Shown: piece by piece, positions 2,932 through 57,715 of the stretch
How the letters are laid out: every line of letters begins with the position of its first letter
Position numbering within the stretch: the first letter of the stretch is position 1
Source: Pegea sp. RAD2-039
Taxonomy: Eukaryota > Chordata > Thaliacea > Salpida > Salpidae
Assembly: GCA_034620365.1 (NCBI GenBank)
Contig: JAQGEQ010000330.1
Location: 434,001-498,000, forward strand
Reading direction: 5' to 3'
Length of the DNA stretch: 64,000 nt
Program-made: the position numbers and the translations under genes
Notes under the pieces: generated by a model
Seen by the model: the letters and a program-made list of their open reading frames with translations, nothing else
Database searches by the model: none
What the model was told of the DNA's origin: nothing

Positions 2932-3726
2932 CTATGATTTCTCGCCGGTATGAGTCCTTTCATGAGTTACAAGAGTAGAATTTCGAGCAAATCGTCTTCC
3001 ACAAACAGCACAATCATATGGCTTCTCACCAGTATGAGTTCTTTCATGAGTTAAAAGATTGGAATTATGAGTAAATTTTCTTCCACAAGCAATACATTCA
3101 TATGGCTTCTCGCCAGTATGGGTTCTTTCATGACATAACAAACGGGTTTTTTGACTAAACTTTCTTTCACAAACTATACATTCATATGGTTTTTCGCCAG
3201 TATGAGTTCTTTCATGACATAGAAGACTAGATCTATGACTAAATTTTCTTCCACAAACAATGCATTCATATGGCTTCTCACCAGTATGAGTTCTTTCATG
3301 ACATAACAAATGGTTTTTTTGACTAAATTTTCTTTCACAAACTATACATTCATATGGTTTCTCACCAGTATGAGTTCTTTTGTGAATGACAAGCTTAGAT
3401 TTGAATGCAAAATGTTTGTTACAAACCAAGCATCTATTTTCGTTTTCCAAAGAAGATTTATCGTTACTTACAAGTTTGGTTTCTTTTTCTTGGTCTGCTT
3501 TTGCAGCCTTATTAACTTCTTCATATGAGTAACTTGTACTTGGTGTATCTCCTTTTAAACTATTTAAACTAGTTTGATCAACGTGATTCTTATGCTTGCT
3601 ATAAGCTCTACTAGAAGGGTTTCGCAAATTAGTCTCTTCTGGATTTTTCTTTGTAAAACTGTTCTTACTATCATCCAATGAAAGTTTTCTTTTTCGATTT
3701 AGTTTTTTGTCGTTCAGCAAATTCAT
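2932..3726 (-). CDS. C2H2 zinc-finger protein, gene A (type-2 N-terminus, six fingers)
   Basis: A 264-residue protein in one exon. Residues 1-98 are a low-complexity N-terminal region with the basic patch NRKRKLS followed by LDDS, probably a nuclear localisation signal beside a phosphorylatable acidic stretch (inference). Six C2H2 fingers run from Cys99 to the C-terminus, each CX2CX12HX3H with TGEKPY linkers. The helix -1/2/3/6 residues read FSKI, QNHC, HSSC, QTRC, HSNT, RSTT. The ATG at 3726 follows a splice-acceptor-like tract. The N-terminus matches gene G (type 2), but the last two fingers and the whole 3' flank match type-1 genes B and F, so the gene looks chimeric. Expected role: nuclear sequence-specific DNA binding; no effector domain is visible. 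Confidence 0.9.
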
Positions 3727-3741
3727 TGTTTACTTAATAAT

Positions 3742-3757
3742 CTGAATTTAAAAATTA
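3742..3757 (-). promoter_or_regulatory. Splice-acceptor-like tract upstream of gene A ATG
   Basis: On the minus strand a T-rich tract ends in AAATTCAG, 15 bases before the ATG. Gene G has the equivalent AAATTTAG followed by the same ATTATTAAGTAAA. This fits a 5'-UTR intron end or a trans-splicing acceptor; the sequence alone cannot tell which. Confidence 0.5.
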
Positions 3758-4620
3758 AATTTTCATTCATTTAAAAACGTCTATTGTTGTTATTAAAACG
3801 TTTATTACAAATTTAGAAAAATACTAATGAAACAATACATAGTTAATTTAAAGATTTTCATACAGAGTTATATTCCTTATTAATTTATTTCATGTGATAA
3901 AGTTTGTATACAAATTTTAGCAGTAAACCATTCACGTTTAAACAAAAGTTTTCTAGAAGGCTAAACCATAAGTTTATCATGTTTCACATACATAATAGTA
4001 TTTAGAATGAACTTTGTAAAAACAAAATGTTCTTAGCCTTTCAAACTTTTAAAACTTTAAAATAGTAAAGAAAAGCAATTTTTCATAAAATTAAGCAAGC
4101 TAGAAAATATTACATGAAATCGAAAACAATTCAGGATCATGTAACACCAATTGTAATATTTTATCCACATTAAGCCTACAATCAACTAGAAGATGCAAAA
4201 GATAATAAAGCACTCCCTTTGAGAAATTTATGCAACACAGTTGACGTTACCAAGCATATTCTGTTTAAGTATATTTAACAAGATATATATATATGATTAA
4301 ATCATAAAAGTGATTTATTGATCTTCAAAAAAGTTTGTAGAAATCATAATTTTGAAAGCAATGTTAGAAACATAAAAATATTTGCACGTAAATTATGATG
4401 ACAGAATCAAAGTTCTAGAAGTTTCTGCAGTTTGGATTTTGTAGCTTGTCGATTATTGTTTTGATGATTTTACTGCTTTGCTATTAATATTTGTTGTGCA
4501 TTAAAATTTTTCAGCAATATTGAATAACTGCAAATCTAAACTTCTTAAGAGGCTATGTTAGTGCAGCTTGCATTCTTTTTACATATTTTAACTTTTTTTA
4601 TAATATATGAGTTTTCCAAA
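3758..4620 (-). repeat. Type-2 5' flank of gene A
   Basis: Upstream region of gene A, homologous to the DNA upstream of gene G (57.72-59.28 kb). The best match is 4,080-4,560 against 58,780-59,270. It carries the GGTAACGTCA promoter-like module and a (TA)n run. In A the module lies only about 520 bases from the ATG, against about 1.2 kb in G, so this flank seems to have lost about 700 bases. Confidence 0.7.
4242..4251 (-). promoter_or_regulatory. CRE-like/TATA promoter module, gene A
   Basis: Minus-strand GGTAACGTCA is followed by AACTGTGTTGCATAAAT. The CRE-like half site ACGTCA with an A/T-rich TATA-like element about 10 bases further is shared with eight other copies upstream of family members. 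A (TA)n tract lies just 5' of it. Confidence 0.5.
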
Positions 4621-5400
4621 AGAACTTACATTTACAGATCATCAGATCTTTTCTTTACATTTGCAAATTCTTTCATGGCAACGATTTGAATTTCGACTAA
4701 ACTTTCTTTCACAAACAATATTTTCATATGGGTTTTCATTAAACATTTAAATAAAATGTTAATAAAACAATAGATAGTTTATTAAATTTTGATGGATGAT
4801 TTTTTTCATTTTCTTAAGGTGATATATTTAAAGGTTTTTATGATAATTGTAACTATAAATCAATCACGTTAAAAGAAAACTTTTCTAGAACGCTGAAACA
4901 GAAACTTATCATGCTTTATAAACAGATTGTATTTAAAGTGAATTTTTAAAACACAAAATCTTGATAATTTTTTGCAATAAACAAAAAACAATTGTTACTT
5001 ATATTTCAAAAATGAAATAGCAAAATATTGAGGTTTATATTGTAACAAAAAAGCCTCTTCTATTAGAAAGACATTGTTGTTGTTTTACATGTAACACTTA
5101 TGAGAACAAAACATCATTTGCTTGTGGAAATATTAAAAGGAGCTGCAAATAAATATTATAATGTATGCAAGAAAGAAAAAGGTTGAAACGTTTCAAACAA
5201 AGTAGACCCTACTCTTAAAGATTTCAAGAAAATAATTTTAAATGGTTTTATCCAATATCTAAGTGTTAATTTTTCAATAAAATTTAAATTTATGATGTAA
5301 CATACATTGAGAGCAACAATTAATTCAAAAAACGTATTAAAAGTGTTTTTTTATGTTTTAATGATAAATGTAATAAACTCAATATTTTCAACATACTCAA
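4621..5400 (-). pseudogene. Type-2 zinc-finger pseudogene remnant 1
   Basis: At 4,640-4,740 the minus strand reads as one decayed terminal finger ([18 protein letters not shown], then CHERICKCK), matching the last finger of gene G and of the 49.2-kb remnant. Its first Cys is replaced by Asn. Directly behind it, with almost the whole coding region missing, 4,760-5,400 matches type-2 upstream DNA. The gene has thus been collapsed by a large internal deletion. It lies upstream of gene B and points away from it. Confidence 0.7.
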
Positions 5401-5560
5401 TAAATTCAAATTTAAGTGTTGATTTTGATTTACTGATAATGCAGAAAACAAATGGAAAAGAATATTGAAACTTTAAAAACAAAATAAAATACAGAAAAAA
5501 GTTAAACATTAAAAGCTCAATTAAAGAAAATCAATAAATTAACACCATTGTAATTTATAA
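5050..5560. repeat. Shared distal upstream segment
   Basis: Recurs at 22.8-23.2, 32.1-32.7 and (more divergent) 58.1-58.6 kb, in each case between a type-2 5' flank and, where one exists, a type-1 gene. One copy has an 82-codon open frame (32,163-32,411) that is interrupted or shifted in the others, so it is not treated as a gene. Confidence 0.6.
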
Positions 5561-6506
5561 GAATTGTATAACCAGAAAAGGCAATATAAACTAATAAAAT
5601 TTAAATCAATTCTAATAATTTGACAGTCAAGAACATTTATCTAAAAATTTTATTTTGAATAGTATTGAAAATCTGATACTAAAATTCTATATCTGAAAAC
5701 TTTCATCTTTAACTTTATTCAATTTGTAAAAGGAAACTAATAACGAAAAAAACTAACAAAACATTACTAACAAACCAGTGTTGACTACAGAATGAACTAG
5801 GTATATAAAGTAATAGGAGATGAAGCATTTACGTAAATGGTAAAATATTCTACTATCACTACTAACAATAACAACACTACTTTTCCACTTATTGTTTGTA
5901 GCTTTGTGAATTAAAATATACTTCTTACTGCTCTTTTGAAATTCTATCTTAACACTTCACTTAATCATTTCTTTGTAGTTGGTACATAGTTGTTATATCA
6001 CTTTAATATTCTTTTTTGTGAAATCAAGTTTTTCCAGCGATTAATTACTGTATTCAGTCAAACACACCCACAAACTGATCCAAAAATAAATATAACTTTT
6101 AGAATAGTTTTTCAGAGGATTTATAAAAATAAAAATAAATGATTAATATCTGTAAGTACTTCTTGAAATTTATTTTTTGTTTGCAACTTTTAAAAATATA
6201 AATTACTCAAAATAATAAAAGTGAATGAACAAATACTCTTACAAAGTTTGGATTTTGCAGTTACTTTATAATAATAAAACAGCAAAAGCATCCAAATAAT
6301 AATCAACAACAACAAAATCAAAATAGTAAAAGCTTCTTTAACATTGATATCATCATCAGAATCTGCGTGCAAAGATTGTTTTGTTTCTAACATTACTTTC
6401 AAAATTATAATTTCTCCAAACTGTTTTGGAGTTTAATAAATCTTTTTTATGTATCAAATATATATATATATTCTTAAGAAGACTTTGACCAAAAGTTTAT
6501 ATGTTT

Positions 6507-6531
6507 GGTAACGTCATTTGTGTTATATATA
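6507..6531 (+). promoter_or_regulatory. CRE-like/TATA promoter module, gene B
   Basis: GGTAACGTCA (6,507-6,516) is followed six bases later by TTATATATA (6,523-6,531), about 1.16 kb before the ATG. Both the sequence and the spacing are repeated upstream of D, E, F and the orphan flank. This is the best candidate core promoter; a start site near 6,555-6,600 would fit (inference). Confidence 0.55.
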
Positions 6532-7640
6532 TTTTTAGAATTTATTTTAAATTATAAGGTTTTGTTGGTCTCTTTTGTCACTTTTAGTTACATGCAAACT
6601 TAATGCAAATATAGAAAAATGATTGTTGTTAGATGATCATGAATGATTTTTGATGTTTTGTAAACCTATGTAGCTTGCTTAATTTTATAAGAAAATTGCT
6701 AGTATTGTTTTTGTGAAGTTTCTGCAGGTATTGCGTTTAAACAAAAAATTTTCAAAACTTTTTGAAATAAAAATTTGTAGTAAATGTTTATAACTGTCAA
6801 AATATTAGACTTTAAGTCAATTTTTCTTCGTTTAATATGGCTTGTAATTTAATATGGCGATAAATTCTTTATACATTTCCATGATAGTTAAATATGTATT
6901 TTTTTTAATTTAAGCTTATCATTTTTAAATTAATTATAATTGAATGTAATTCAATGAGTCAAAATCAACTCATAATTTTCATTAAAATATTCTTTAACTA
7001 TAACTGAAATATATATATAAATATATAAATTAAACTAAGTATATTTGTAATTAAAATAACTAGAAAAAGTTTATATTTTTTTATCAATCGTTGCTCACTA
7101 TTTATGTAACATCATACAATTTAATTCTATTGAGGACTTTACACTTGAATATGAAAAAAATAACTGCAGATTAAAATCTGTAAAATAAAGGTCTAACTTC
7201 TTGTTGATCTGTTTTTAACTCTTTTAAATCTTACTTTTATTAGATACTTTTTAATTTTTATTTTCTGAACTACTGTTATTATTTTCACAAACAAACGTGT
7301 TTTGCCCTCGTAACTGCTACATGTAAAGCAATATTATCTTTTCTATAGAAGATTTTTTTTTTCTATTTATATATTATAGAATTGGATATTAGGTTGTCTA
7401 AATACTGAACTATAACCAACAATTTGTGAAAATACTTGCTTAAGTTTACAAAAAATTGTTCTTCAAATTCGTTTTAATGAAAATATGTATATAGAACATC
7501 ATAAGTTTCTTGTTAAAACTTTTACAAAACTTGATCTAAACTTGATTGTTATCATTAGTAAACAAACTTTATATAGCATATAAAAATTATATATCACTTA
7601 AAACTAAAATTATTTTATATACACATTTTAAAATTAACAA

Positions 7641-7655
7641 ATTTTTTTTCTTCAG
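7641..7655 (+). promoter_or_regulatory. Splice acceptor before gene B ATG
   Basis: The polypyrimidine tract TTTTTTTTCTTCAG ends 15 bases before the ATG and is conserved before C, D and E. A candidate donor CAG|GTATTG lies about 0.93 kb upstream. A leader intron or an SL trans-splicing acceptor would both explain it. Confidence 0.6.
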
Positions 7656-7670
7656 CCTATTAACTTGAAA

Positions 7671-8717
7671 ATGAACTTGATACAAGGCAGCAACTTTGCA
7701 CGGAAAAGAAAACTGTCATCAGATGATGATGAGAAAAGTTTTAATAATAAAATTGCAGAAAATAAAATTTTGGTAAACACTTCTTGTGGAATATATAACT
7801 TGTATAAAAGTCATGCTGATCAAAATAGTTTAAATAATACTAAAGAAATTCCAACAACTACAAGTTTCCCTTATAAAGAGACTAACAGCGATAAAAAAGC
7901 ATTCAAAGGGAAAGAATATAATGAAGAAAACAAACAATCATCTAATTTCAAAATCAAATTTGAATGCTTAGACTGTAACAAGAAATTTAAATTCAAATCT
8001 CAGCTTGTTTATCATGAAAGAACTCATACTGGTGAGAAGCCATATGAATGCATTGTTTGTGAAAGACAATTTAGTCATAGATCTAGTCTTCTAAGTCATG
8101 AAAGAACTCATACTGGTGAAAAGCCATATGAATGTACAGTTTGTGAAAGAAAATTTGCACAAAAATCTAATCTTTCAATTCATGAAAGAACTCATACTGG
8201 CGAGAAGCCGTATGAATGTATAGTTTGTGAAAAGAAGTTTAGTCAAAACACCAATTTGTTAAGTCATGAAAGAACTCATACTGGTGAGAAACCATATGAA
8301 TGTCTTGTTTGTGAAAGAAAATTTGCACAAAAATATAGTCTTTCAAGTCATGAAAGAATTCATACTGGCGAGAAACCATATGAATGTATTCTTTGTGAAA
8401 AGAAGTTTAGTCAAAAGTCTAGTCTTCATTGTCATGAAAGAACCCATACAGGTGAGAAGCCATATGAATGCATTGTTTGTGAAAGAAAATTTGGTCATAA
8501 ATTTAGTTTTCTATGTCATGAAAGAACCCATACTGGTGAGAAGCCATATGAATGTATTGTTTGCGGAAGAAAATTTACTCATATTTCCAATCTTTTAACT
8601 CATGAAAGAACTCATACTGGTGAGAAGCCATATGAATGTGCTGTTTGTGGAAGACGTTTTGCTCGAAATTCCACTCTTGTAACTCATGAAAGGACTCATA
8701 CCGGCGAGAAACCTTAG
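7671..8717 (+). CDS. C2H2 zinc-finger protein, gene B (type 1, nine fingers)
   Basis: A 348-residue intronless coding exon starting at the ATG of [17 protein letters not shown]; the upstream in-frame TTG is not a plausible eukaryotic start. Residues 1-98 are the type-1 N-terminal region ([11 protein letters not shown], likely nuclear localisation signal plus a CK2-like acidic serine site). Nine CX2CX12HX3H fingers start at Cys99. Helix -1/2/3/6 residues read FSQY, HSSS, QSNI, QTNS, QYSS, QSSC, HFSC, HSNT, RSTT. Finger 7 has Phe instead of the usual core Leu. The stop TAG falls exactly where the next finger's Tyr codon should be, and a decayed tenth finger follows. An AATAAA lies at about 8,847. 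Role inferred from the family: nuclear DNA binding. Confidence 0.93.
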   Translation: MNLIQGSNFARKRKLSSDDDEKSFNNKIAENKILVNTSCGIYNLYKSHADQNSLNNTKEIPTTTSFPYKETNSDKKAFKGKEYNEENKQSSNFKIKFECLDCNKKFKFKSQLVYHERTHTGEKPYECIVCERQFSHRSSLLSHERTHTGEKPYECTVCERKFAQKSNLSIHERTHTGEKPYECIVCEKKFSQNTNLLSHERTHTGEKPYECLVCERKFAQKYSLSSHERIHTGEKPYECILCEKKFSQKSSLHCHERTHTGEKPYECIVCERKFGHKFSFLCHERTHTGEKPYECIVCGRKFTHISNLLTHERTHTGEKPYECAVCGRRFARNSTLVTHERTHTGEKP

Positions 8718-8800
8718 GAATATGTTTTTTGTGAAAAAAAAATTTAGTTGAAATTCAAGTCAATTACGCCATGAAATGATGCATGTTTCTTAGAAAAAGT
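8718..8800 (+). pseudogene. Decayed tenth finger after gene B stop
   Basis: After the TAG the sequence still reads as a finger: EYVFCEKK, then after a one-base shift a near-complete helix ending in LRHEMMH. The first zinc-binding Cys is already Tyr. The same remnant follows the stops of A, C, D and F, so the truncating stop predates the duplications. Confidence 0.75.
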
Positions 8801-11200: not shown

Positions 11201-14100
11201 ATATAAGGTGATTTTGAGACAAACTTTATTTCTTTGACATTAGTCTTATAGAAAATTATAACTTACTGATAGTTGCATAAAACTTTTGTTGTAAGTTCAA
11301 AGTCTGTAAGCTAGATTATTTATCTAAAAGATCTAAGAATACAAAAATTATAATTTTACAAAATATGAAATAAAAATATTATAGGGTCAGATTTTTTAAT
11401 TTTTTTTAAACCTTACACTTAGTTAAAAAACTTATCTGATATTAATTCATAGGTTTTTTTAGGTTTTTTTAATTCAGTGAAACACTCTTAGCTAATTTTG
11501 ATAAACTTAAATTGTGTATCAGAATTAAAATAACTAAGCAGTGCAAATATCAAAGATACTGATGAATATCTAATAGAGAACTTTTACTTCTGCAAAAATC
11601 TTAGATACAGAACTCAACTTAATACTTTCTTTTTTAACTTAGTGAATTACTGAGTTGGAAAAACTATACAAGAACATAGCCTGAAGCAATGCAAAGTTTT
11701 TAAAATTATTTATCATCAGCGACGTCTAGCGTCAACTTTTACGACTAAAACAATTAAAAATAAAAAATTGTTAAATAAATTGTTCTAATTATATAGAAAA
11801 GTGGTTTTAGTTACACAAAATAAATGATTTTAGATTTGAATTAGTTTTTAGAAATTAAACTAAGTTCTTATAACATATATAATAATGATAGAACATACAA
11901 GAAGAAAGAATAAATACAAGAAGAATACTAATAAGAATAATATTTAGAAGAAAAATAAGGATAGAAACAAGAAGAACATTTACTTATGATAAGATATACA
12001 AACAATATTAAAAATTTAAATTATGATAAGATTGGTAGGAAAATAAAATCAAATACTGATTAATATTAAAGACTAAAAAATATAAATCAAAATTATCCTT
12101 CTCTTTTTATACAAAATGTTTTCCTTTGACAACAATTTTAAATTACTTTTTTTACTTAATTAGATTAATTTTCTACAAAAAGTTCATCGAAGACTAGAAA
12201 GAAAAAAACTTTTATAAAACAACTAAGTGAAATAATAAATTTATTACAAATATACTAATAGTAGTCTACCAATATTACGATTATTATATTCAAATTTAAA
12301 GGTTTTATTAACAACAAAAGTTGAAAATAATATATTTTCAGAAATTTAATTTTTTATAAAGTTTATCGACAGATTGTCGATTTCAAAATAATGCTAGTGT
12401 GGAGGCAAATTAGCTGAGCAATTTGTTGAACTAAAAAATAGTTCTTTCTTTTATTAATTTCTTTCGATCTAGTATTTGTCAGGAGGAAAGTACTTTTTCA
12501 AACTTTTCTTTTTCTCTATAAGTTTGATTTATTAAAAACTGTTAGACAAACTTTATTTCTCTGACATCAATCTTATAGAAGACTGTATCTTATTTCTAGG
12601 TGCAAAACACTTTTGAGTTTAAATTTTTCAGGTAATTCGTTAAAACTAAACATATTTTTTATATAAAGATATTTGTATTAGTTTGAATAAAATTTTTACA
12701 AATATTAAAAAATAAAGTCTTTCAAGTTCAAAGTCTTAGACTATTTATCAAACAGATCTAAGGAGAAATTTACAATTTTACAAAATATGAAAATAAAATT
12801 TTTACAGCGACATGTTGTGGCTGAAAAATAAATATTAAAATCTAATATTATTTGACAATATTTTTTGATTTACAGTCTAATAAAAGAAATTCCAATAAAA
12901 GTGAGACAAACTGCAAATAAATTGTTAAGGTCAGTTTTTCTCTGACTCTTAATTAATTGACATGGTAGAATTTGTTAGATAATATTTTTCTTTAATCTTA
13001 CTAATGTTATTCTAAACTTATTTAAGTATTTTAGGAAAACAGTTGATTAAATTTAGTTTTATAGTTATTATATAATATTATATACTTAGATAATATTTAT
13101 ATAATTATATACTAGTAGTGAATTATACTTCGCATTATTTCAATAATTTGGAAAATAATATTTTTTTGATTACGTCACATATAAAGTTTTAAAAACACAA
13201 TTTTTTGTGATGATTTTATGAAACTAGTTCAAGCTTCAAATTTTAGTAATGGAGAATTGTCTTTAAGTATAAATAAAGCAATCAAAATATTTTTATTTTA
13301 TAAGCTATAAGTTGAAATGAAAGAATTCAGTTTAAAATCACTTTAATGTATTCATTATGAGAACATGCAGAAAATATTTTGGAATGTAAAATTTTTCTAA
13401 TTTATTTTTGCAATATTTTCATATTGATAAGAATTTTTCCAACCAATCGAGCTGCAATTTATGAGTAAAATATACAATACAAGTTTTTTTCAATATTACT
13501 TGAATGCAATTAAATGAATGTAATTACTTTAAAGAAACATTCTTTATTAGACAAAGTAATTTCAATTTTTAAGAAATTAGGCAAATTTTTCAACAATGAG
13601 AAGAATTTATTTAAACTTTTGAAAATTAATTTAGCAGCTTTTGGATTGTTAATTATATAAATTCTTATCATTAATATGCTATCTGTCAAAAATCATTATA
13701 TTGAAATTATTCCATCCAAAACCATTTGGAAAACTTATTTCTGTTTCAAATAACTTTTCTATTAATGTTACAGCTTTTTTAAATTCGTTTGTATGATTAA
13801 TAAAATTAGGAACTATCAACGTAAGCCACAAAATTTTTTTTTTCAATAAAATGATTAAATTTCATTTTTCTGCTTCCATGAATGCTGTTGAGTAAAATAT
13901 GAATACATTTTCTTTAAATCTAATAATTCTTTTTATTGTTTAGCAATAAAAATTTCTTCTAATCTATAGCGACCGTTTTGTAAGACATAAGTAATTAGAT
14001 CAAAAAAGTTTTCTTTTTATTTCATCTTGAATTCAGTTTAATATTTGTGGTTATCTGGCTGTTAGAGAATCTATGGATTCCATAAAAATGAATTTAAAGA
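11200..14100 (+). repeat. Element X, copy X1
   Basis: Dispersed repeat with relatives at 29.6-31.45 kb (inverted), 49.62-52.45 kb and 61.74-64.0 kb. It contains two diverged tandem sub-repeats: the run around GACAAACTTTATTTC occurs at 11,218 and again at 12,543. A perfect palindrome sits at 12,365-12,381. Relative to X3 and X4 it lacks 538 bases at about 12,113. No intact ORF was found, and termini and target-site duplications could not be defined, so its class is unknown. Confidence 0.75.
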
Positions 14101-14770
14101 TAATTAAAAAAATTCAAATCAAAACTCAAAATATAAAACTTTACAGTTTCGATTATTTATCACCTTTTGTAAAAGAAATAAGATTGTCAATAAATTTTAA
14201 ATAAATTTTTGTTGATCCTAAATCTGGGACTAAAGAATAAATAGTTAAATTGTTTCATTGATCATACTAAGTAGTACTGATTGTAAAGATTAAATAATAA
14301 CAAGAAATATGTGTAGTTACTAATACCAATAAAAAAAAAAGACTCCATGATGACACCATTCGGAAAAGTAATCTTTAAACAGTCTTTCATCGTAGTATCA
14401 AGTTTTCAATTTGAATTTGTATATTTAGATTTAACTAATTTAAACAAAAATGATTATTTCAAATTTGAATTACTAATTTAAGTTTTTAAATTTCAAAGTT
14501 TTTTTTTTCGAAATGCACATCCAAAATTTCCTATCATTTTTATTAAATTTATTTTTTGTCATTTCTGTAAAATTATTTAAAAAATGCATTGAAAAACATT
14601 GAAAAAAATTGCGCTTATCAAATCTCTTGTATGAGTGGCCAAATATTCTTAACATTCAATTACAAGCATTGCATCTGCTGTCGGTTCTTTAACAGCCAAA
14701 TGACCAGCAATCATATGACAACGAAGCAAGTATGTGATACCATCAGCTATTTGTGTGGCTAACTCATATT
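14100..14770 (-). repeat. Junction piece Y, copy 2, and X/Y spacer
   Basis: The inverted match of 28,800-29,560. On the minus strand a frame through about 14,760-14,590 reads LLRCHMIAGHLAVKEP with one later stop. The 60-codon frame at 14,473-14,655 lies across this remnant and is not conserved. The right edge continues directly into the gene C 3' flank, as copy 1 does from the gene B flank. Confidence 0.55.
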
Positions 14771-17031
14771 ATGAATTTCATGGCAAAGTTGTTGTAAAGG
14801 GGATGTTTAATTAACAAAACATCAGTATTCTATTTCAACCATTATCAAATGAGATTGTTTCAACAAATACTGATGACATAATTCATTTAGTTAGGAACTG
14901 TTTAAATGTTGACTGATTGTAAAAATGCAGGGTTAATGAAGGACTTTTATAAATATTTAAAACTACTTAAAAATAATAAAATAAATTAAAATAAATAAAA
15001 AGTTAAATGATATCCACTAAATTGTTAACTGGTTTCAGTGATTATTTTTTTTCAAATAAAACTTTTCTAATTCATTAGTAAAGGTCTTTGTAATTAGAAA
15101 AAACATCTTGACTGTTCAAAAATTTAATTTAAAATTTCTTCTAATATACCTCGATTTCAAGTCCACTAATATAATTTCATTTTCAAAGCTTTCAAAAATG
15201 TAGATTATCATTGAATTACATTTATGTAATATGTTATTGACTACAAACTAAAAATTTATAGTTTTTTTATTAAACAATTTGACTACGGAAAACGATAAAC
15301 CGTCATAAAAGCTAAAAAATGCCAAAAAAATCTTAATAAATTTAATCGATAGATTTTGTCTAGAACATAATTATATGTAAATTCTATGCTATACTTTTTT
15401 TAGAATTTTAAGGTTTGATCTATTACTCAAAATGAAATCCTAAATTTGTTGTTTTATATTTTTTATACTTCTTAAGTAAAATATTTGTTTGAGAAAACTA
15501 ATTAAAGTAAGTGTTATGTGGTTCTTATTTACAATAAATCTATCAGTCTAATAGTTTTTTGTCTACAATATTTCAAACCATCTTATATGTTTATATTGAT
15601 TTAACTTTATTGCATAATTATAATTGTATAAATGTGAAAATTTAGTCTAGAAAACTTCTAGTAATTGACTTCTCTTAAAAGCTAAAGAAAGTTATTGTGA
15701 GTCAAAATTTGGTTTAATAAGTTGCTATTACATTTGTAATAATATATGATTATTGTTTGCAGTTGAACTGTTTATTTTTATAAACATAATTTAAAATGAT
15801 TATTACATAAACTGAATTAATAAACTGAAGTATTTTTGTAAATTTTTTTTTATAAATTAAATTCTACATAATGATTTTTTTTAATTATCCACAAACTTGT
15901 GCTGATTATTAAAGAACATATTTTAAAGATAAACTAAAAGATTAGTTCAAGAAATTCGGTGAATTTGTAGATTGCATAATTTAGATACATCGGCAAACTA
16001 AAGTTTCTAGATGTTTTGGTCTTATCTTGTTTGCTGAAAGTAATTCAGTTGAAAAAGTAATTGTGTTTAGATATACTGAAAGTAATTTAAGAAAAATAAA
16101 ATATTATTAAATCTAAATTGACAACTTAAAATAATACTATTATAAAATAGTTTAAACTGAATTTACTGGCAAACATTAAGCAAGTATTTCTTCTTCTGAC
16201 GTAATAACTGGCTTGCTAACAAAGTTTAAAAAAATTAGATAATTATTTCAATTTTTCATCAATTCAATCTTTCAAGTTAGTTTTAACCATTCGGGTAATA
16301 AACTGCTTAGTGCTATAGCAGAAGGGATTAATTATGATGTAATATGTTTTATTAAAAAGCATTTATTTCTAAAATGAAATGATAAACAAAATAGCATTAG
16401 GTTTGAACAAAGAGATTTTATGAATTAAAACTTTATTTTCATGAAATTATTTTGAGTATCTACTAAAAACTGAAGTTTCAATTAAAAAAATAAAAACAAA
16501 TTGTGAAGAGTATTAAGTTGCATAAATTTAAAAAGTTTTAAACGGATTTCTAAACAAAAACTAAAATTTATCAGCAGTTTGCACAACATTGATTAACTAA
16601 GAGATTAAAATCTAAATACAGAAGCTTTTTGGTAATAAATAAAGGACATTAAAAAACTTGTGGGTTTAAGAAAACTTGGAATAAGAATGAAACAAGTTAT
16701 AGTTCGTTTACAAAAAAAAAATACGAACCGCCGATCACAAACAATAACAGAAAAATAACTTTTAAAATCATTATTATTTACTGTAACATACAACATTTGA
16801 TCAATAAAACAAATATTAATTAAATAAAAACAACTCAAACTAAAAAAACAATTTTAAAAATTATATTTTTAAACCATCTGATCTACACAAAGCTATTTAT
16901 TTCTTCTTATAAATTGCAAGTAAACTTTGACCAGCAAAATGATCTCACTTTTTCTGAGAAACATGAATCATTTCATGGCGTAATCGACATGAATTTCAAC
17001 TAAATTTTTTTTTCACAATCAAAACATATTC
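14770..17031 (-). repeat. Type-1 3' flank of gene C (right inverted-repeat arm)
   Basis: Reverse-complement counterpart of 8,718-11,040. It includes the decayed terminal finger at about 16,955-17,031, which here also carries an extra small indel. No gene is seen in it; the 77-codon frame at 16,605-16,838 is not kept in the other copies. Confidence 0.85.
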
Positions 17032-45480: not shown

Positions 45481-45482
45481 TG

Positions 45483-45839: not shown

Positions 45840-46610
45840 CTTTCATAAAAATCAAATTACCAAAAAACGTATCAAAACGTAAAGTTATTTTAAAATTTCA
45901 AATAAAGATTTTGTTTATAAATTAAGAACCTTAAAAAGCAATATCTACAAATAAATTGATGTGAAATGAGGTAAAGAAAACAATCAATAAAACTTATCTC
46001 ACCAAAATTAATTAATTTATTTTCATACAACCTTTCTGTAAACCACAAACTCAAAACTTAGAATAACCCATTTTAACCCCCAAATAACGTGAAGATACTG
46101 TGCAAAGCGGTTACTGCAGCCAGTGAGAAGTCACAGTATCTTCATGTGGCCCCATTTGCAACATCAATTTAAACATTTAAAAAAGATCTTTGTCTGCTAG
46201 CCTTGCTCAACGCTTAGAAAGAGTTAAATGAAGTCTTTCTCTGATTGAATCAATCCACTGAAATGAATTGTATCAGAAACTCTAATCTGTGTTTAGAAAA
46301 TTGACTAAAGTTATTTTTTAGACACTAGACATTGATAAAGCAAAATTAATTTATATATCTGTTTATTGAGATGTTGTATTCCAGTTACTATGGCTGCTAT
46401 ATTCTCACTATTTATTACTTATTAACGATTATGTAATTATTTATCTTGTAAATATATTTATTATAATTTTTGATCAAATTTATCAATTTAAGAATAAAAA
46501 CTAAATAGTTTTAAAAAAGCAAACAAATAATTCATCTAATTTTTAAAACTTTAGATCTTAACCCAGTCACTTCTTCATGTTTTTAAATACAATAGCAACC
46601 TAATATAAAG
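45840..46610. repeat. Repeat R3, copy 2
   Basis: Matches 21,700-22,500. The plus-strand remnant frame again reads KAVTAASEK and KELNEVFL then LNQSTEMNCIRN. This copy has a private 13-bp inverted repeat at 46,090-46,144. Confidence 0.6.
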
Positions 46611-46639
46611 TTAAATATGAATAGCGCAATTAAAGAAGA

Positions 46640-48188
46640 TCAATAATTTAATACCCTTGTAGTTTATAAGAATTGTATAACAGATAAGTCAATAAAAACT
46701 AACAAAATTTAATTCAAATCTAATAATTTGCCAAGAGTTTTTAGCTAAAAATTTTATTTTGAACAGTTTTGAAAATCTGATATTAAAACTCCATATCTGA
46801 AAACTTTCATATTTAGCTTTATTCAATTGGTAAAAGGAAACTAATTACGAAGATAACTAACAAAACACTACTAACAAACCAGTGCCGACTACAGAATGAA
46901 CTACATATATAGAGTAATAGGGGATGAAACATTTACGTAAATGGTAAAATATTCTACTATCACTACTAACAATAACAACACTACTTTTCCACTTATTGTT
47001 TGTAGCTTTGTGAATTAAAATGTACTTCTTACTGCTATTCTAGAAATTCTTTCTTAACACTTCACTTAATCATTGCTTTGAAGGTGGTACATAGTTGTTA
47101 TATCACTTTAATATTCTTTTTTGTGAAATCAAGTTATTCTAGCGATTAATTACTGTATTCAGTCAAACACACCCTCGAAATCATCCGTAAATAATAATAC
47201 CTTTTAGAATAGTTTTTTAGAGGTTTTATAAAAAAAAACTTTAAATGATTAATATCTATAAGTACTTCTTGAAATTTATTCTTTGTTTGTAACTTTGAAA
47301 AATATAAAATACACAAAATAATGTAAACTGAATGAACAAATACTCTTACAAAGTTTGGATTTTGCAGTTACTTGATAATAATCAAAAGATTTATTGTACT
47401 AAAATTTTGAGAACAAAGCAGTAAAGGCATCAAAATGTTAATCAGCAAACAACAAAATCATAATAGCAAAAGATTCTATAACTTTAATAACCTCATCAGA
47501 ATTTGCGTGCAAAGATGGTTTTGTTTCTAACATTACTTTCAAAATTATTATTTCTCCAAACTGTTTTGAACATTAGAAGATCACTTTTATAAATCAAACA
47601 TATATATATATATTCTTAAGAAGACTTTGACCAAAAGTTATTATGTTTGGTAACGTCATTGTGTTATATATATTATAATAATTTTTTTTAAATTATAAGG
47701 TTTTGTTGCTCTCTTTTGTCTCTTTTAGTTACTTGTAAACTTAATGTCAATAGAGAAAAATGATTGTTGTTAGATGATCATGAATGATTTTCGATGTTTT
47801 GTAAACTTATGTAGCTTGCTTAATTTTATAGGACAATTGTTAGTATTGATTTTTGGGAAGTATTTGCAGGTATAGCGTTTAGACATGAACTTTTTTAAAA
47901 TAAAAATTTGTAGTAAATGTTTATAACAGTCAAAATATTAGACTTTAAATCAATCTTTGTTCGTTTATATTGGCTTGTAAGTTATAAATTCAGTATACAT
48001 TTCCATGATATTTAAATATCTATTTTTTGAGGTTGAGCTTATCGTTTCTAAATTAAATCTAATGTATATTCAATAAGTCAATATTAAGTCTTGACTTTTG
48101 ATTAGAATATTCTCTAACTATAACTAAAATATAATATATATATAAACATAACTAAGTATATATGTAATTAAAAATAAATAGAAATAGT
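46640..48188 (+). repeat. Orphan type-1 5' flank
   Basis: Follows the gene B upstream block from the conserved TTTACGTAAA element (46,931) through the promoter module (47,649) to about 48,188. There a truncated LINE replaces the rest, including the acceptor and gene. It is a promoter copy without a zinc-finger gene. Confidence 0.75.
47649..47672 (+). promoter_or_regulatory. CRE-like/TATA module, orphan flank
   Basis: GGTAACGTCATTGTG then TTATATATATTA. If still active, it would transcribe into the LINE fragment about 0.5 kb downstream. Confidence 0.45.
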
Positions 48189-48893
48189 ATATAAAGACTT
48201 TTAATTCTAAAGATCCATGGTTTTACGTGAACCTTTTCAAACTGTACATACGCCCTATTCTTGAATACAATGTCAGTGCATGGATGCCATATCAAGTTGG
48301 TGATATCAGTAAAATCGAATCTGTTCAGTCAAAATTTACGAGATTGGTTTGCAGGAAACTTAATATCAAATACGAGAGTTATAAGCATCGTCTCAGCTTC
48401 TTCAATCTAGATACTTTGGAAATCCGAAGAATTAAATACGACCTTATTCTGATTTTTAAAATTATTCACAACCTAATTGATCTTCAGTTTGATGACTTTT
48501 TCTCCATTAGTCCCTCCCTCAAGTTATATCAACTTAGAAGACATAAATTACATCTTAATAAGCCCACTCCACCAGCTACGTTAACCAGATTAAGTTTTTT
48601 CTCATACCGCACAATCAGTACATGGAACAATCTGCCATCAGAGATTGTCATGTCAAAATCACTTATGCTGTTCAAGAAAAAGCTGAATTGTTATAACATC
48701 GCCAACTTTGCCATTTCTAAACTGTAAATTTTTCTCTTTTACAATACTATGATTCTGTGCAATTCTTCATTGTCATATACTTTTTCGTTTACACGTCAAA
48801 TAGATCTAATTTGTGAGAATGTGTGCTAGCGAGAGGTGCTCTCTTTAGGCACCCTCCTTCACATTTATTGTAATAAATAAATAAATAAATAAA
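48189..48893 (+). mobile_element. 5'-truncated CR1/L2/Jockey-like LINE with 3' tail
   Basis: Begins abruptly inside the reverse-transcriptase ORF, next to the orphan type-1 flank. It ends in a short 3' UTR with a GGTGC...GCACC hairpin (48,838-48,857) and an (AAAT)n tail (about 48,868-48,893). This is the standard outcome of incomplete target-primed reverse transcription. No target-site duplication could be identified with confidence. Confidence 0.85.
48191..48727 (+). pseudogene. LINE reverse-transcriptase C-terminal fragment
   Basis: An open frame without a proper ATG start encodes about 178 residues of the region after the RT catalytic core. It includes SKDPWFYVNLFKLYIRPILE (thumb-like region typical of CR1/Jockey RTs), ESVQSKFTRLVCRKL, the TLEIRRIKYDLILIFKIIHN segment, and the C-terminal TISTWNNLPSEIV motif. 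The catalytic FADD motif and the endonuclease domain are absent, so it is not functional. The absence of stops suggests a young insertion. Confidence 0.9.
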
Positions 48894-49397
48894 ATCACTT
48901 TTATAATTTAAACATATATATATCTTGTTAAATATACTTAAACCGAATATGCTTGTTACGTCAACTGTGTTGTATAAATTGCTCCAAGGGAGTGTTTCAT
49001 TCTCTTTTGCATCTTCTATTTGCTTGTAGGCTTAATGCCGATAAAATATTACAATTAGTATTAGATGACCGTAAAGTGCTTTTGTAAATATATGTATATT
49101 GCTTAGCTTTATAAAATAATTGATATTATTGATTTGTTTTGCAGCGTGCAGTTATAGAGCATTGACATCAAAATTTCTCATGAAACAACTCATTCTGGTG
49201 CGAAACCATATGAATGTATTGTTTGTGAAAGAAAATTTAATGAAATATCTTACTTTTTAACGCATGCAGAAAGTCATGTTGATGAGTAGACTTATAAATG
49301 TAATTTTTGTGAAAGATTTTTTAGTCAAAATTCCAATCGCTTACGCCATGAAAGATTGGGCAAATCTAAAAAAGAATCTGTTAATCTGCAAATGTAA
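48894..49397 (+). pseudogene. Type-2 zinc-finger pseudogene remnant 4
   Basis: 48,894-49,165 is type-2 5' flank (promoter module GTTACGTCA at 48,955, then a TTTTGCAG acceptor-like tract at about 49,137). It is followed at 49,176-49,397 by only the last two fingers: [17 protein letters not shown] and on through THAESHVDE, an in-frame TAG, then TYKCNFCERFFSQNSNRLRH and a tail KKESVNLQM. This matches the C-terminus of gene G. The N-terminal region and most fingers are deleted. Confidence 0.8.
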
Positions 49398-49620
49398 GAT
49401 TTTCTGGAAAACACGTATTTACTATATTTCTATTGTATCTAAATAGTTGTTTGTCTCAACCCAAATATCAACGAGTTTAAAGAAAATGTTCACGTGTTAC
49501 AGTTTGCTGAGACTGCTTCACAAGTGCAAATCGTTAGTTCTGATGGTTACCATCTAAATCGATAGCATTTGCAACTTAAATACATCAGGATTAAATCTTT
49601 CAAAGCTCAACAAGAAAGTA
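49398..49620. other. Unassigned spacer
   Basis: Nothing recognised between the pseudogene end and element X3. Confidence 0.4.
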
Positions 49621-52450
49621 ATCTTAATACTTTCTTTTTTAACTTAGTGAATTACTGAGTTGGAAAAACTATACAAGAACATAGCCTGAAGCAATGCAAA
49701 GTTTTTTAAGTTATTTATCATCAGCGACGTCTAGCGTCAACTTTTACGACTAAAGCAATTAAAAATAAAATATCGTTAAATAAATTGTTCTAATTATATA
49801 GAAAAGTGGTTTTAGTTACACAAAATAAACAATTTTAGATTTGAATTAGTTTTTAAAAATTAAACTAAGTTCTTATAACATATATAATAATGATAGAACA
49901 TACAAGAAGAAAGAATAAATACAAGAAGAATACTAATAAGAATAATATTTAGAAGAAAAATAAGGATAGAAACAAAAAGATCATTTACTAATGATAAGAT
50001 ATACAAACAATTTAAAAGATATAAATTATGATAAGATTTGTAGAAAAATAAAATCAAATACTGATTAATATAAAAGACTAAAAAATAAAAATCAAAATTA
50101 TCCTTCTCTTTTTATACATTGTAGGTATTTGTAAGTTTTTATCAAACCTAGCATTAAAACTAATAAGCTTAATAAAACATTTAAAATAATTTTAGCAAAA
50201 TCATAACATCGAATATATTGACTAAATTCTCAAATAATTTTATAAATAGAAATCAGTGAACCAGAACCTTTGCAGTCTGTGGCGACGATTTGTTTGATAA
50301 AGTAAAAATACTGAAAAGAAAGATTAATATTTTGATATAACAGCTAAATAAAGAGATAAGATAATTCAAATAAAATTATCATTAATAACCAAAATATTAA
50401 CAAACTAAAATGATACTTTCTTTAAGGGTATTAATCGAAATTAAAAGAATATGAAATTTATTGGCTGGTTAATAAATTTATACATGTCTACAAGCTGCCT
50501 ATTTCAAAATCTTGCGCGTTTTCAAGACCTAATACGTCTAATGTTCCATAATAATTCTTTGACTATCATCTCTTTCAATCTAATAATTGTCAAAACAAAA
50601 GTTAATTTTAATAATTACTTTCTCTTTTATAACTTTGGTTATTTAGAACTCTTACAAAATGTTTACCTTTGAGAACAATTTTAAATTACTTTTTTTACTT
50701 AATTAAATTAATTTTCTACAAAAAGTTTATCGAAGACTAGAAAGAAAAAAACTTTTATAAAACAACTAAGTGAAATAATAAATTTATTACAAATATACTA
50801 ATGGTAGTCTACCAATATTACGATTATTATATTCAAATTTAAAGGTTTTATTAACAACAAGAGTTGAAAATAATATATTTTCAGAAATTCAATTTTTTTT
50901 AAAGTTTATCGACAGATTGTCGATTTCAAAATATTGCTAGTGTGGAGGCAAATTAGCTGAGCAATTTGTTGAACTAAAAAATAGTTCTTTGTTTTATTAA
51001 TTTCTTTCGATCTAGTATTTGTCAGGAGGAAAGTACTTTTTCAAACTTTTCTTTTTCTCTATAAGTTTGATTTATTAAAAACTGTTAGACAAACTTTATT
51101 TCTCTGACATCAATCTTATAGAAGACTGTATCTTATTTCTAGGTGCAAAATACTTTTGAGTTTAAATTTTTCAAGTAATTCGTTAAAACTAAACATATTT
51201 TTTATATAAAGATATTTGTATTAGTTAGAATAAAATTTTTACAAATATTAAAAAATAAAGTCTTTCAAGTTCAAAGTCTTAGACTATTTATCAAACAGAT
51301 CTAAGGAGAAATTTACAATTTCACAAAATATGAAAATAGAATTATTACAGCGACATGTTGTAGCTGAAAAATAAATATTAAAATCTAATTTTATTTGACA
51401 ATATTTTTTGATTTACAGTCTAATAAAAAAAATTTCAATAAAAGTGAGACAAACTGCAAATAAATTGTTAAGGTTAGTTTTTCTCTGACTCTTAATTAAT
51501 TGACATGGTAGAATTTGTTAGGTAATATTTTTCTTTGATCTTACTAATGTTATTCTAAACTTATTTAAGTATTTTAGGAAAACAGTTGATTAAATTTAGT
51601 TTTATAGTTATTATATAATATTATATACTTAGATAATATTTATATAATTATATACTAGTAGTGAATTATACTTCGCATTATTTGAATATATTGGAAAATA
51701 ATGTTTTTTTGATTACGTCACACATAACGTTTTCAAACACAATTTTTTTATGATGATTTTATGAAACTAGTTCAAGCTTCAAATTTTAGTAATGAAGAAT
51801 TGTCTTTAAGTATAAATAAAGCAATCAAAATATTTTTATTTTATAAGCTATAAGTTGAAATAAAAGAATTCAGTTTAAAATCACTTTAATGTATTCATTA
51901 TGAGAACATGCAGAAAATATTTTGGAATGTAAAATTTTTCTAATTTATTTTTGAAATATTTTCATATTGAGAAGAATTTTTTCAACCAATCAAGCTGCAA
52001 TTTATGAGTAAAATATACAATACAAGTTTTTTTCAATATTACTTGAATGCAATTAAATGAATGTAATTACTTTAAAGAAACATTCTTTATTAGACAAAGT
52101 AATTTCAATTTTTAAGAAATTAGGCAGATTTTTCAACAATGAGAAGAATTTATTTAAACTCTCGAATATTAATTTAGCAGCTTTTAGATTGTTAATTATA
52201 AAAATTCTTATCATTGATATGCTATCTGTCAAAAATCATTATATTGAAATTATTCCATCCAAAACCATTTGGAAAACTCATTGCTGTTTCAAAAGACTTT
52301 TCAATTAATGTTACAGCTTTTTTAGGTTTGTTTGTATGATTAATAAAATTAGGAAATATCAACATAAGCCACAAAATTATTTGTTTCAATAAAATGATTA
52401 AATTTCATTTTTCTGCTTCCATGAATGCTGTTGAAAATAATATGAATACA
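49620..52450 (+). repeat. Element X, copy X3
   Basis: Direct relative of X1 and X4, with the palindrome at 50,908-50,924. It retains the 538 bases lost in X1. Open frames 50,451-50,672 and 52,057-52,308 are partly shared with X4 and X1 but carry indels or stops there, so coding status is doubtful. Confidence 0.75.
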
Positions 52451-54160
52451 TTTTCTTTAAATATAATAATTTTAAATACTAATAAAATGTATAAGATGTA
52501 TTAAAATTACTAATAAAATACTAACAAACTAATAAATGTAAACTTGTTAAAACTAATTTAAAAAAATGAAATGATTTATATAACACAAATAGCAAATTAA
52601 GGATAATATTTTTATCAGTAAAATATATCTTGGTGCCAGCTTTTATTGACTATAAATGAGGTGAAATTGAATTGAGTTTTTTCAAATGACAATAAATAAA
52701 AGATATCAATTATATTAAGTAAAAAAATAAATTTAAATTATCATTATAATAATTTTATCAATTGTTGAAATCTTTTTTCTTTTACTATAAAATCAATCTT
52801 TCATATTTGTTGATTGTTGCTACTTGCATAAAAACTACTTCTAATAACTACATTTTTAATACTGCTATTTAGTTTTAAATGTTCTGGGTTTCAAAAATCA
52901 TGAAAATTACTTGCTGCCAGGCATCTGTAGACGACTACTCTAATTCATGAGGCATATCACTATTAGTAAGCTAGTTGACTTGTGCCAGCTAATATAGGCT
53001 ATAAATAAGGTGAAGCCGAATTGGTTTATTTCAAATGATAAGAAATAAAATTGTCTAAACAAACCACTGATGTAGTAACTGATTATAACTATAAAAAGAT
53101 TGTTCCTGAGTTGAAATAATCTTATGGAATAACATTTGTTTTAGAATAAAGAATTTGGAACTAATTGTAAACTATAAATATTAAAAAAAATGTGTGTAAA
53201 TTTGAAAATACTAACAAAACAAGAATAATTAGAGTTGCTAATACCAGAAAAAAAAAAATCAAAACGACCTTCCGATAAAATTATTATTAAACAATTTTTA
53301 ATCTTAGTATAAATAATCTTAGTGATTCATATTTGTTTATTATTTCCACTTTAAATCATAATCACTACTTTATTCTCTAAAAATAGCAACAACTTTTATT
53401 GTTCTAACAGTTTTGTTAATATAGAAGTAATAAAACTCCTAAGAAAGTTATTTAACTAATATTTAATTGTGTGAAAGTCTAAATTTAGAAAGTTGACATA
53501 TTTTTTTGATATTGTTTGAGTCATGGTAAAGTTAATAAAATTTGAAATAAAAAGTAGAAATAAAAACTAAACAAAACTTTATTTATTTATATTAGAAAGT
53601 ATTTAAATATATAAAACAGATTTACTTTAAGTATTTATTTATATTTGAAAACTGTGAAGATAAAATCTTCTAAGAAAGTGAAACTCATACGAGATAGCAG
53701 AATCATTTTCAAAATAATTGAAGATAATTGATTTGAAAACACCTTAAAAAACAGTGTGAAAAAATTGCGCTTATCCAATCACTTGGTTCTACCTAAATGT
53801 AATCGACCAATCTATTTTTGTAAAGTTTTCTTACTTAATATTCAAACTTTAAGCTATTTCCTATAATTTTCATTCTAGAATGTCCTCATCATTTAGTTTT
53901 CAAACAAAATAAGAATAACTTTTAATTAGTTTTATTTTTAGTTTAAGATTTATTGACAATCTTATTTCTTTTACAAAAGGTGATGAGAATAAGAAATTAT
54001 GAATTTATTTTTGTTTCTATATGTCCTTTTTATTTATTTAATTTTTAAATTATCCTAATTAGTTAGTTGTTGGTAACCTGAAAACAATTTAACGATTAGT
54101 AATTTATTTTCTTATTAGTTAAGATAAAACAAGAATTCGGTTTTGTTTATAAAACGTAGG
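52451..54160. other. Unassigned A+T-rich DNA
   Basis: No gene seen. 53,050-53,330 is a diverged copy of 37,200-37,470. GTGCCAGCTTTTATTGACTATAAATGAGGTGAA at 52,633-52,665 has a diverged direct repeat at 52,981-53,014. Confidence 0.45.
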
Positions 54161-54959: not shown

Positions 54960-55450
54960 CTACTAAGAAAGCGAAATCTAGAAATAGATTGATAACAAAT
55001 AATGTTAAGAAAACAATGAACAAAACTCATATTACCAAAATCAATTTATTTTTAAACAATTTTTTGAGTAAACCACAAACTCAAAACTTAAACAAGCCTA
55101 TATAACCCTCCAAATAACTTAGGGAAACTGTGCAAAGCGGCTACTGCAGCCAGTGGTAAGGTCACATTAGCTCCATTTGTACCATCAAAATAAACAACTA
55201 AAAAACATGCTCAGTGTTTCTGATCCGATCCAGCATCTTGAATTGTATCAGAAACTATTATCTTTATTTAAGGAATTATTTAAAGTCGTTTAAAGAACTA
55301 AGAAGGTGATGAAGCAAAAGTGATTTATAAATCTGTTTATTGAGATGTTGTATTCCAGTTATATGACTATTAAATTATCACTATCTAGTAGCTATTAATG
55401 TTTATGTAATTATCTATTTTGTAATTATATTTATTCACATCATTATATTT
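54960..55450. repeat. Repeat R3, copy 3
   Basis: Diverged and shortened relative to the other two copies, lacking the central KELNEVFL-like part. It is recognised by GCAAAGCGGCTACTGCAGCC (55,133-55,152) and the flanking AACCACAAACTCAAAACTTA. Confidence 0.6.
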
Positions 55451-56640
55451 ATTCTAAGTAATTCAATTAAAAAGCAATATAATGTTTTTGCTTAAAATCA
55501 TCCATTATTAAAAATGATCTATTTATGCAAAAGTCCATTTTTTAGTATGAACCTCCTTATAAAGTCTATTAATTAATATAATCAGTTACGTCATCAGTAG
55601 TCAAACATTTTCATTTCAAATTAATTGAAATTTGATTTTCTTTCTATTTGGTCAACCACCTAAGATTAGCTTGTATTAAATAAATAAAACAAATTTAAAA
55701 TTCTGTAATAAATTGCTTATTATATATATTAATTAATGAGAAAACTAATTTTAATTAGTAAACTTAAAGAGTTTTAATTTTTTACTAATTAAAACTACTT
55801 TTAATTAAGTTTTTTCACACTTTTTTGAATGTGTTTTCAGATCATATATCTTCTATTATTCTAAAAAGGACTCGGCTATCAGGTAGGAGCTTCACTTTCT
55901 TATAAGATTTTATTTTATTTTTCTCAGGAATGAAAACATTATATTGTTACGGATTTTTGGAATTTCTTTAACAATATGGAAGTCTATTGAAATACATCTT
56001 TATCTTTTTAAACTTTATTATAAATTAGTATTATTAAAATAGAACTTAATTATACATAATAGGTATTATTTATGACAATTTTTGTTGCCAAAAGGTGTTT
56101 CTTTAGGCACGTTCCCTTGCTTTCAACGAAAGAAATAGATGAAAAAGAATTTTAAAAATCCTAATGTAAAAAGGTAGAGATTTGTTTGTAAGATTACAGC
56201 TTTTATATATTTAAACTTTGTGACGATAGCATAATGAAGTATTTGTCATGGCAGTGAAAGAAACCAACATTTGCTCAGACCGAGCAAATTGTAAATCTAA
56301 GATTGTAAAATCATTTCTAATCAAACATGTATGCTTGGACACATCATCACATTTTTGTAGTAGAAGATTATGGACTACAATTGGTTTATTTAAATATTAA
56401 ATTAAAATCTAATCATTAAAACTTTTTCAACGAATTTCTAAAAAAAAATTAAAAATCATCATCAGTTTGCAAAGCATTTATTAAGTAAGAATTTAAGTTT
56501 TACACACAATAACTTATTTACGAGTTTAACAAAATACCTTGTTTGAAACTTTAAAATTTGAGAATGGAAACCAAATAGTTTTTAAAAAGTAAATAAAATA
56601 TTTATCTAATTTTTAAAAATTTAGATCTTAACATAGGATC
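55451..56640. other. Unassigned A+T-rich DNA
   Basis: No gene seen. GGTGTTTCTTTAGGCAC at 56,095-56,111 resembles the LINE 3' hairpin, but the rest of the LINE tail is not recognisable. Confidence 0.4.
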
Positions 56641-56661
56641 TTACAGTATAACCAAAGGATC

Positions 56662-57715
56662 TTATATTTCCAGATTAACAGATTCTTTCTTACATTTGCA
56701 GAATCTTTCATGGTGTAAGCGATGTGAATTTTGAGTAAAAAATCTTCCACAATAACTACATACATATGACTTCTCATCCACATGGCGTTTTGCATGAGTT
56801 AAAAAGTAAGATTTTTCTCTAAATTTTCTTCCACAAGCAATACATTGATATGGCTTATCACCAGTATGGGTTCTTTCATGACATAGGAGACCAGACCTAT
56901 GACTAAATTTTTTTTCACAAGCAACACATTCATGTGGTTTCTCACCAGTATGAGTTCTTTCATGACATAACAAATAGTGTTTTCGACTAAATTTTCTTTC
57001 ACAAGCAACACATTCATATGGCTTCTCGCCAGTATGAGTTCTTTCATGACATAACAAATAGTGTTTTCGACTAAATTTTCTTTCACAAGCAATACATTCA
57101 TATGGCTTATCACCAGTATGGGTTCTTTCATGACATAGGAGACCAGACCTATGACTAAATTTTTTTTCACAAGCAACACATTCATATGGCTTCTCGCCAG
57201 TATGAGTTCTTTCATGACATAACAAATAGTGTTTTCGACTAAATTTTCTTTCACAAACAATACATTCATAAGGTGTCTTACCAGTATGAGTTTTTTCGTG
57301 ATATAACAAGTGATGTTTTTGATTAAATTTGTTTCCACAAACAGTACATTCATAAGGCTTCTCACCAGTATGAGTTATATGTGAATGATAAGCTTAGATT
57401 TGCTTTTAAAATATTTTTACAAACTATGCATTCATTTTTGTTTTTGAAAGAAGATTTATTTTTATTTTCAAGTCTGGTACCTTTTTCTTTGTCTGCTTTT
57501 GCAGCCTTGGTAATTTCTTCATAAGAGTAACTAGCACTTGGTGTATATCCTTTAATACTGCTTAAATTAGCTTCACCGACGTGTTTTTCATACTTGCTAT
57601 TAGTTCCACTAACAGAGTTTTGCAAATTTGTCTCTTCTGTATTTTTCTTTGTAAAACTATTCTTACTATCATCCAATGAAAGTTTTCTTTTTTGGTCAAT
57701 TTTCTTTTTGTTCAT
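56662..57715 (-). pseudogene. C2H2 zinc-finger gene G (type 2, frameshifted in finger 1)
   Basis: The ATG at 57715 opens a type-2 N-terminal region ([17 protein letters not shown]) that runs to Cys96, then leaves frame in finger 1 and stops at 57,362. Aligned with gene A, finger 1 lacks one base before the AAATCTAAGCTT stretch and another after its first His. From about 57,380 to 56,662 the correct frame is open: eight more fingers and the tail CKKESVNLEI. Helix -1/2/3/6 for fingers 2-9: QHHY, RHYC, HSGC, RHYC, RHYC, HSGC, ESYT, QSHH. Fingers 3-7 are shuffled copies of two finger types. The last finger is C2HC (HHERFC). This preserves the full type-2 C-terminus that gene A has lost. Either a recent pseudogene or an assembly error. 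Confidence 0.85.

Follow-up and report, generated by a model that had tools for sequence, protein, structure and literature searches.

A C2H2 zinc-finger gene array with two sister subfamilies and mixed gene ends in the salp Pegea sp. RAD2-039

We studied a 64,000-nucleotide stretch of DNA from the salp Pegea sp. RAD2-039 (GenBank assembly GCA_034620365.1, 105.7 Mb in 387 contigs), which covers positions 434001-498000 of contig JAQGEQ010000330.1 (C254) and is called the window below. Seven C2H2 zinc-finger (ZNF) genes and four remnants had been claimed for it in an initial annotation, and all of them were found, namely five type-1 genes, two type-2 genes and four type-2 relics, the two types being told apart by their N-termini. 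We consider it probable that the window is a slice of a C2H2 family with two sister subfamilies, which was amplified in an array of about a megabase, whose gene ends were exchanged through the fingers and whose products would bind DNA. The features are listed here with their 5′ and 3′ classes, since 43 genes from the window and elsewhere in the genome sorted into three 5′ classes (T1A, T1B and T2) and four 3′ classes (E1-E4); L numbers denote loci of the genome.

2932-3726, minus strand: g1 (the same as L029), open; type-2 N-terminus, six fingers and a type-1 (E1) 3′ end, hence a chimera, T2 joined to E1
4627-4740, minus strand: relic p4; type-2 5′ flank fused to the last finger and tail, with the N-terminus and most fingers lost
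4741-7670, no strand: divergent intergenic stretch from p4 to g2, duplicated at 31842-34788
7671-8717, plus strand: g2, type-1; 5′ class T1A, 3′ class E1
17032-17742, minus strand: g3 (the same as L011), type-1; T1A 5′ end; its E1 3′ end clusters with those of three T1B genes
22531-22703, minus strand: relic p22, type-2; residues 51-86, containing a stop and followed immediately by the C-terminal tail
25331-26461, plus strand: g4, type-1; T1A joined to E1
31519-31780, minus strand: relic p31, type-2; N-terminus split over more than one frame, fingers gone
34789-36255, plus strand: g5 (the same as L026), type-1; T1A joined to E3, in-frame stop at 35365-35367
42038-43252, minus strand: g6, type-1; T1B joined to E1
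46607-48193, plus strand: copy of type-1 upstream sequence with no type-1 gene behind it; 84-87% identical to 5498-7075, 32608-34192 and 23129-24726
49173-49394, plus strand: 49.2 kb relic, type-2; tail and final two fingers kept, the common stop lying before the last finger
56662-57715, minus strand: g7, type-2 with native type-2 tail; frameshift between N-terminus and fingers
4047-4580, 6269-6700, 18656-19222, 23954-24380, 33374-33809, 44153-44702, 47298-47839 and 58750-59283: copies of an upstream stretch of about 0.5 kb

The genes begin with an N-terminal region of about 98 residues, which carries a basic RKRKL stretch and, except in the frameshifted g7, shares its open frame with the fingers. 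The first finger had been placed at about residue 96-99 and, counted from the homologous ATG, its first cysteine is indeed residue 99 in g1 and all five type-1 genes (g4 has an in-frame upstream ATG, which would give 117). The division into two N-terminal types was borne out in that the types form distinct subfamilies; they are not unrelated, however, as nine type-2 rows shared 43-47% identity with a type-1 gene across 135 columns, the first finger being included. Since both types also have in common a motif around RKRKLS, we regard them as sister subfamilies. In agreement with the suggestion that the region holds no named domain, neither N-terminus had a Pfam match at E values up to 1, and neither KRAB nor zf-AD was among the matches at that threshold for g6, g1 and the two N-termini. 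One scan of viral contigs for a relative of the N-terminus gave two pattern matches, neither of which was confirmed. A folded N-terminal domain was considered and rejected on a structural model of low confidence (mean predicted local distance difference test score, pLDDT, 48.8), in which residues 1-94 had pLDDT below 50; the N-terminus is thus predicted to be disordered. The ratio of nonsynonymous to synonymous differences (pN/pS) in the N-terminal region was 0.45 in 22 type-1 genes, 0.68 in nine type-2 chimeras and 0.78 in ten native type-2 genes, pointing to some constraint on the N-terminus of type 1.

Several further features lie around the genes. Most of the T1A, T1B and T2 genes inspected have, 15 nt ahead of the ATG, a T-rich tract with a terminal AG, which resembles a splice acceptor. 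The 0.5 kb stretch lies upstream of genes of either type, with copies 71-90% identical to the one at 4.05-4.6 kb; g1 and g7 were 90% identical in it and 78% identical around their starts. It may be a shared promoter or a dispersed repeat. Behind the stop that follows TGEKP in E1-class genes (for example after 8717 and before 17032) lies a decayed extra finger, partly out of frame; a common stop thus seems to have cost this class its last finger. At 45848-48193 we identified a trace of the type-2 3′ flank together with type-1 upstream sequence, both without their genes, and part of the latter (46815-48188) also matched 18344-19702 in inverted orientation (84-87%). After this upstream copy, in the place of the expected type-1 gene, a plus-strand frame at 48188-48727 looks like the C-terminal part of a long interspersed nuclear element (LINE) reverse transcriptase. 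The 49.2 kb relic was 66% identical to the tail of g7 over 62 residues (E 1e-26). Stretches free of finger genes (11211-15805, 27775-31469, 49613-52473 and 61940-64000) are repeated at 93-97%, some of the highest similarities found among the window's duplications. No tRNAs, and no RNA families at the gathering threshold, were found in the window.

Two protein searches of the genome, whose hits were merged and are in part partial, gave at least 109 type-1 and at least 32 type-2 N-terminal loci on five contigs, counts which are lower bounds because the searches score the best candidates only. Type 1 was found on C254, C255, C60 and C89, and type 2 on these four and on C93. The array spans on C254, C255, C60 and C89 add up to 1,072 kb, and on the first three of them no more than 10 kb separates the array from contig ends, indicating that the assembly probably breaks it. 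In the locus catalogue, part-matches of one locus were merged and two window relics were entered manually; absent from it are the relics at 4.6 and 49.2 kb and five distant N-terminal matches (36-40%) on C286, C261, C273 and C267. These genes carry tandem C2H2 fingers with TGEKP linkers and form a clustered multigene family. Moreover, 98 of 136 neighbouring genes lay on opposite strands, a value reached in none of 20,000 permutations (mean 69.7, standard deviation 5.8). Inverted duplication would give such alternation, and one is seen in the window itself, where 5713-8419 matches 19700-16991 at 86%. Other C2H2 genes, with N-termini that differ by eye, are grouped on C3 and C8 (L001-L008), and more than one ZNF family therefore seems to have expanded in this genome.

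We then compared the two ends of the genes in the 43-gene set, which consists of the window's seven genes and 36 others; the latter come from the 40 fetched loci with the best scores (those nearest to g6 and g1), of which L009, L011, L026 and L029 were left out as the window genes again. Among the 21 genes with a type-2 5′ end, six had an E1, three an E2 and twelve an E4 3′ end, one of the twelve (L038) being assigned by finger similarity only, so that 11 were counted as native; nine of the 21 thus carry type-1 3′ ends. The T1A class was joined to E1, E2 and E3, and T1B to E1. Two assignments are to be read with care: the T1B gene L014 was classed as E4 since its locus ends early, while its tail says E1, and L027 scored almost equally for E2 and E3. 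For the chimera g1, self-comparison of the window showed that 515-3380 matches 39613-42486, where the type-1 gene g6 has its 3′ half and 3′ flank, at 93.5% identity.

The separate trees for the two ends that the initial annotation had proposed were built from 27 of the 43 genes, leaving out 13 E4-classed rows (L014 and L038 included) and L016, L021 and L022, whose 3′ flanks are short. On the 5′ tree, the type-2 rows formed one clade (support 100/100). In contrast, a single type-2 clade was rejected on the 3′ tree (approximately unbiased test, p-AU 5e-74), as was a single E1 clade on the 5′ tree (p-AU 7e-39) and a single T1A clade among the E1 3′ ends (p-AU 1e-7). The two ends of the genes thus differ in history, which also argues against a gene pair as the general rule of amplification. 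Finger number varied as well, even between genes with identical N-termini: L013 and L014 have 12 and 18 fingers, and L020, L021 and L022 have 10, 15 (before a stop) and 16. We infer that non-allelic exchange within the 84-bp finger repeats is the simplest cause of both the changes in finger number and the swaps of ends.

The open genes examined had 5 to 18 fingers. With helix positions numbered as we take them to run in these fingers, the entropy across 379 fingers of the 43 genes was 2.69 bits at position 6, 2.56 at -1 and 2.53 at 3, and at most 1.67 elsewhere, indicating that diversity is concentrated at the DNA-contact residues -1, 3 and 6, and not at 2. The fingers presented 77 combinations at -1, 2, 3 and 6. 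Because of the finger family to which they belong, the products are probably nuclear, sequence-specific DNA-binding proteins.

The type-2 subfamily has largely decayed. No stop in the matched stretch together with an open frame of 240 residues or more was seen at 90 of 109 type-1 loci and at 9 of 32 type-2 loci (Fisher p 1.7e-8, with relatedness ignored). In the window, p4, p22, p31, the 49.2 kb relic and g7 are each broken in another way. At the 11 native-tail loci (g7 and ten fetched), a stop before the last finger occupied the same position in 10, as in the 49.2 kb relic, and was missing from g7. Further lesions, mostly different, were present in eight of the 11, with one shared by L034, L035 and L036. 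Only the common tail stop was found in L039, L041 and L047, the second of which also lacks an ATG; none of the 11 is fully open. The proposal that type 2 repeatedly died is therefore right for the lesions, which mostly differ by copy, but not for the stop before the last finger, which points to an early common truncation with separate deaths afterwards. Six of nine chimeras (g1, L032, L037, L040, L043 and L045) were open to the expected 3′ end, which is suggestive only of better survival than that of native type-2 genes.

As had been recommended, the window was compared with itself, and long collinear duplications far beyond chance appeared, such as that between 4741-8779 and 31842-35896, 93% identical over 4060 columns. 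The units at 4.6 and 31.5 kb were 94-97% identical in every 300-column bin, starting in the type-2 5′ flank (at 4967 and 32067) and running through the type-1 N-terminus. The unit at 22.6 kb was collinear with both (83-97%) except at the type-2 end, where the 5′ part of p22 is gone. Three of the four relics lie about 3 kb from a divergent type-1 gene, at 4.6/7.7, 22.6/25.3 and 31.5/34.8 kb, just as the initial annotation described. From this layout it had concluded that the amplified unit was a divergent type-2/type-1 pair in which type 2 died repeatedly, an explanation that we regard as possible but doubtful. It fits the three units of the window, two of which were copied together with the type-2 5′ flank, and the lesions that differ among the type-2 copies. 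Of the 21 catalogued type-2 loci that are weak or relics, 11 stood head-to-head with type 1 within 3.3 kb; outside the window it was 9 of 18, where random placement gave a mean of 3.0 and reached at least nine in 7 of 5000 sets, although the 3.3 kb limit was picked after the distances had been seen. This layout was found for just one of 22 better-kept type-2 loci within 3.3 kb, and for six of 22 as the upstream neighbour at any distance. Moreover, the chimeras show that the ends moved separately, and 32 of 147 neighbouring catalogue entries were type-1/type-1 head-to-head with no type-2 locus listed between. Relics as decayed as p4 escape the search, however, so this last count may hide further pairs.

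The same 32 neighbours, with spacings bunched at about 4.6 and 5.6 kb, would equally suit a basic unit formed by an inverted head-to-head pair of type-1 genes, the type-2 relics being older passengers between its two members. In the window, the upstream region of g6 matches that of a lost type-1 gene in inverted orientation (43905-44786 with 48119-47225, 80%), but the 93% duplication described above holds one type-1 gene only, and we give this explanation similarly limited credence. A literature search combining C2H2 zinc finger, gene cluster, head-to-head and inverted duplication returned no match. The divergent type-2/type-1 pair is one of several things that were copied, and it is not supported as a general rule in view of the type-1/type-1 pairs and the chimeras. 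Two more rivals concern the array as a whole. Unmerged haplotypes or assembly error might have inflated the copy number, as equal scores and frame lengths across contigs (for example C60:406377 and C255:326998) and an array that runs to contig ends would allow; copies within the single 64 kb window differ by at least 3%, with different finger counts and 3′ ends, and we think such inflation quite unlikely. The genes could also be cargo of a large mobile element, since there are many similar copies in both orientations and the LINE-like fragment, recognised by eye, lies among them. That fragment had no Pfam match at E values up to 1, the copies are confined to five of the 387 contigs, and visual inspection of the open frames of 75 residues or more revealed no other element frame, no specific search for element ends having been made; cargo of this kind is very improbable and was rejected.

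We favour the account of a C2H2 family of two sister subfamilies with exchanged ends. In such an array, segmental duplications, some with the divergent type-2/type-1 layout, would enlarge the array; the 84-bp finger repeats would be the site of non-allelic exchange, by which finger numbers change and 3′ ends swap; and products with a disordered N-terminus followed by fingers may act as regulators or repressors that track, for example, transposable elements. Several observations weigh against it. The 43-gene set is not a random sample of the 141 loci, and the clade groups tested were named after the first trees had been seen. Within the E1 genes alone, a single type-2 clade on the 3′ tree was not rejected (p 0.16), so that two type-2 swaps would suffice (one to E1 and one to E2). 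Contact position 2 (1.67 bits) is scarcely more variable than non-contact positions. The pN/pS ratio was 1.02 at the contact positions (-1, 2, 3 and 6) versus 0.77 at other variable positions, which suggests relaxed constraint or mild diversification, with no clear positive selection. The role of the products, most likely that of regulators or repressors following changing sequences such as transposable elements, is drawn by analogy with what is thought of KRAB-, ZAD- and FiNZ-ZNFs. A bolder version, in which the array is a specificity generator that rejoins the 5′ modules T1A, T1B and T2 with the 3′ ends E1-E4 via the 84-bp finger repeats, dead type-2 copies serving as donors or being revived by gaining a type-1 finger array, so that new DNA-binding proteins keep arising, seems to us unlikely.

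The best reading is that of a new, putatively lineage-specific ZNF family, comparable to the KRAB-, ZAD- or FiNZ-ZNFs. The ZAD-ZNF genes of insects are an invertebrate lineage-specific ZNF expansion, which the salp genes would resemble in this respect, but zf-AD is missing from their Pfam matches. The mouse KRAB zinc-finger clusters are reported (PMC5363842) to have grown by segmental duplication and recombination and to contain many members with compromised coding capacity, and the salp array resembles them in both its growth and its many damaged members. Unlike KRAB-ZNF genes, the array genes have no KRAB by Pfam, and their N-terminus and fingers share one open frame; in the array, strands alternate. 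The FiNZ-ZNF genes of cyprinid fish, as described by Wells et al. 2023 (PMC10547256), have a family-specific N-terminus unlike known domains, tandem C2H2 fingers and hundreds of copies in one chromosomal region. The array is like them in having its own N-terminus without a known domain, tandem C2H2 arrays and many copies packed together. However, FiNZ is described there as 28 residues, glutamate-rich and encoded by its own exon, which sets it apart by description from the basic N-terminus of the salp genes with its greater length and its frame shared with the fingers. Taken together, an apparently undescribed ZNF family with an N-terminus of its own joins the lineage-specific expansions that are thought to follow transposons through this array, and its distinguishable 5′ and 3′ classes make finger-array exchange directly countable in more than 100 copies in one genome.

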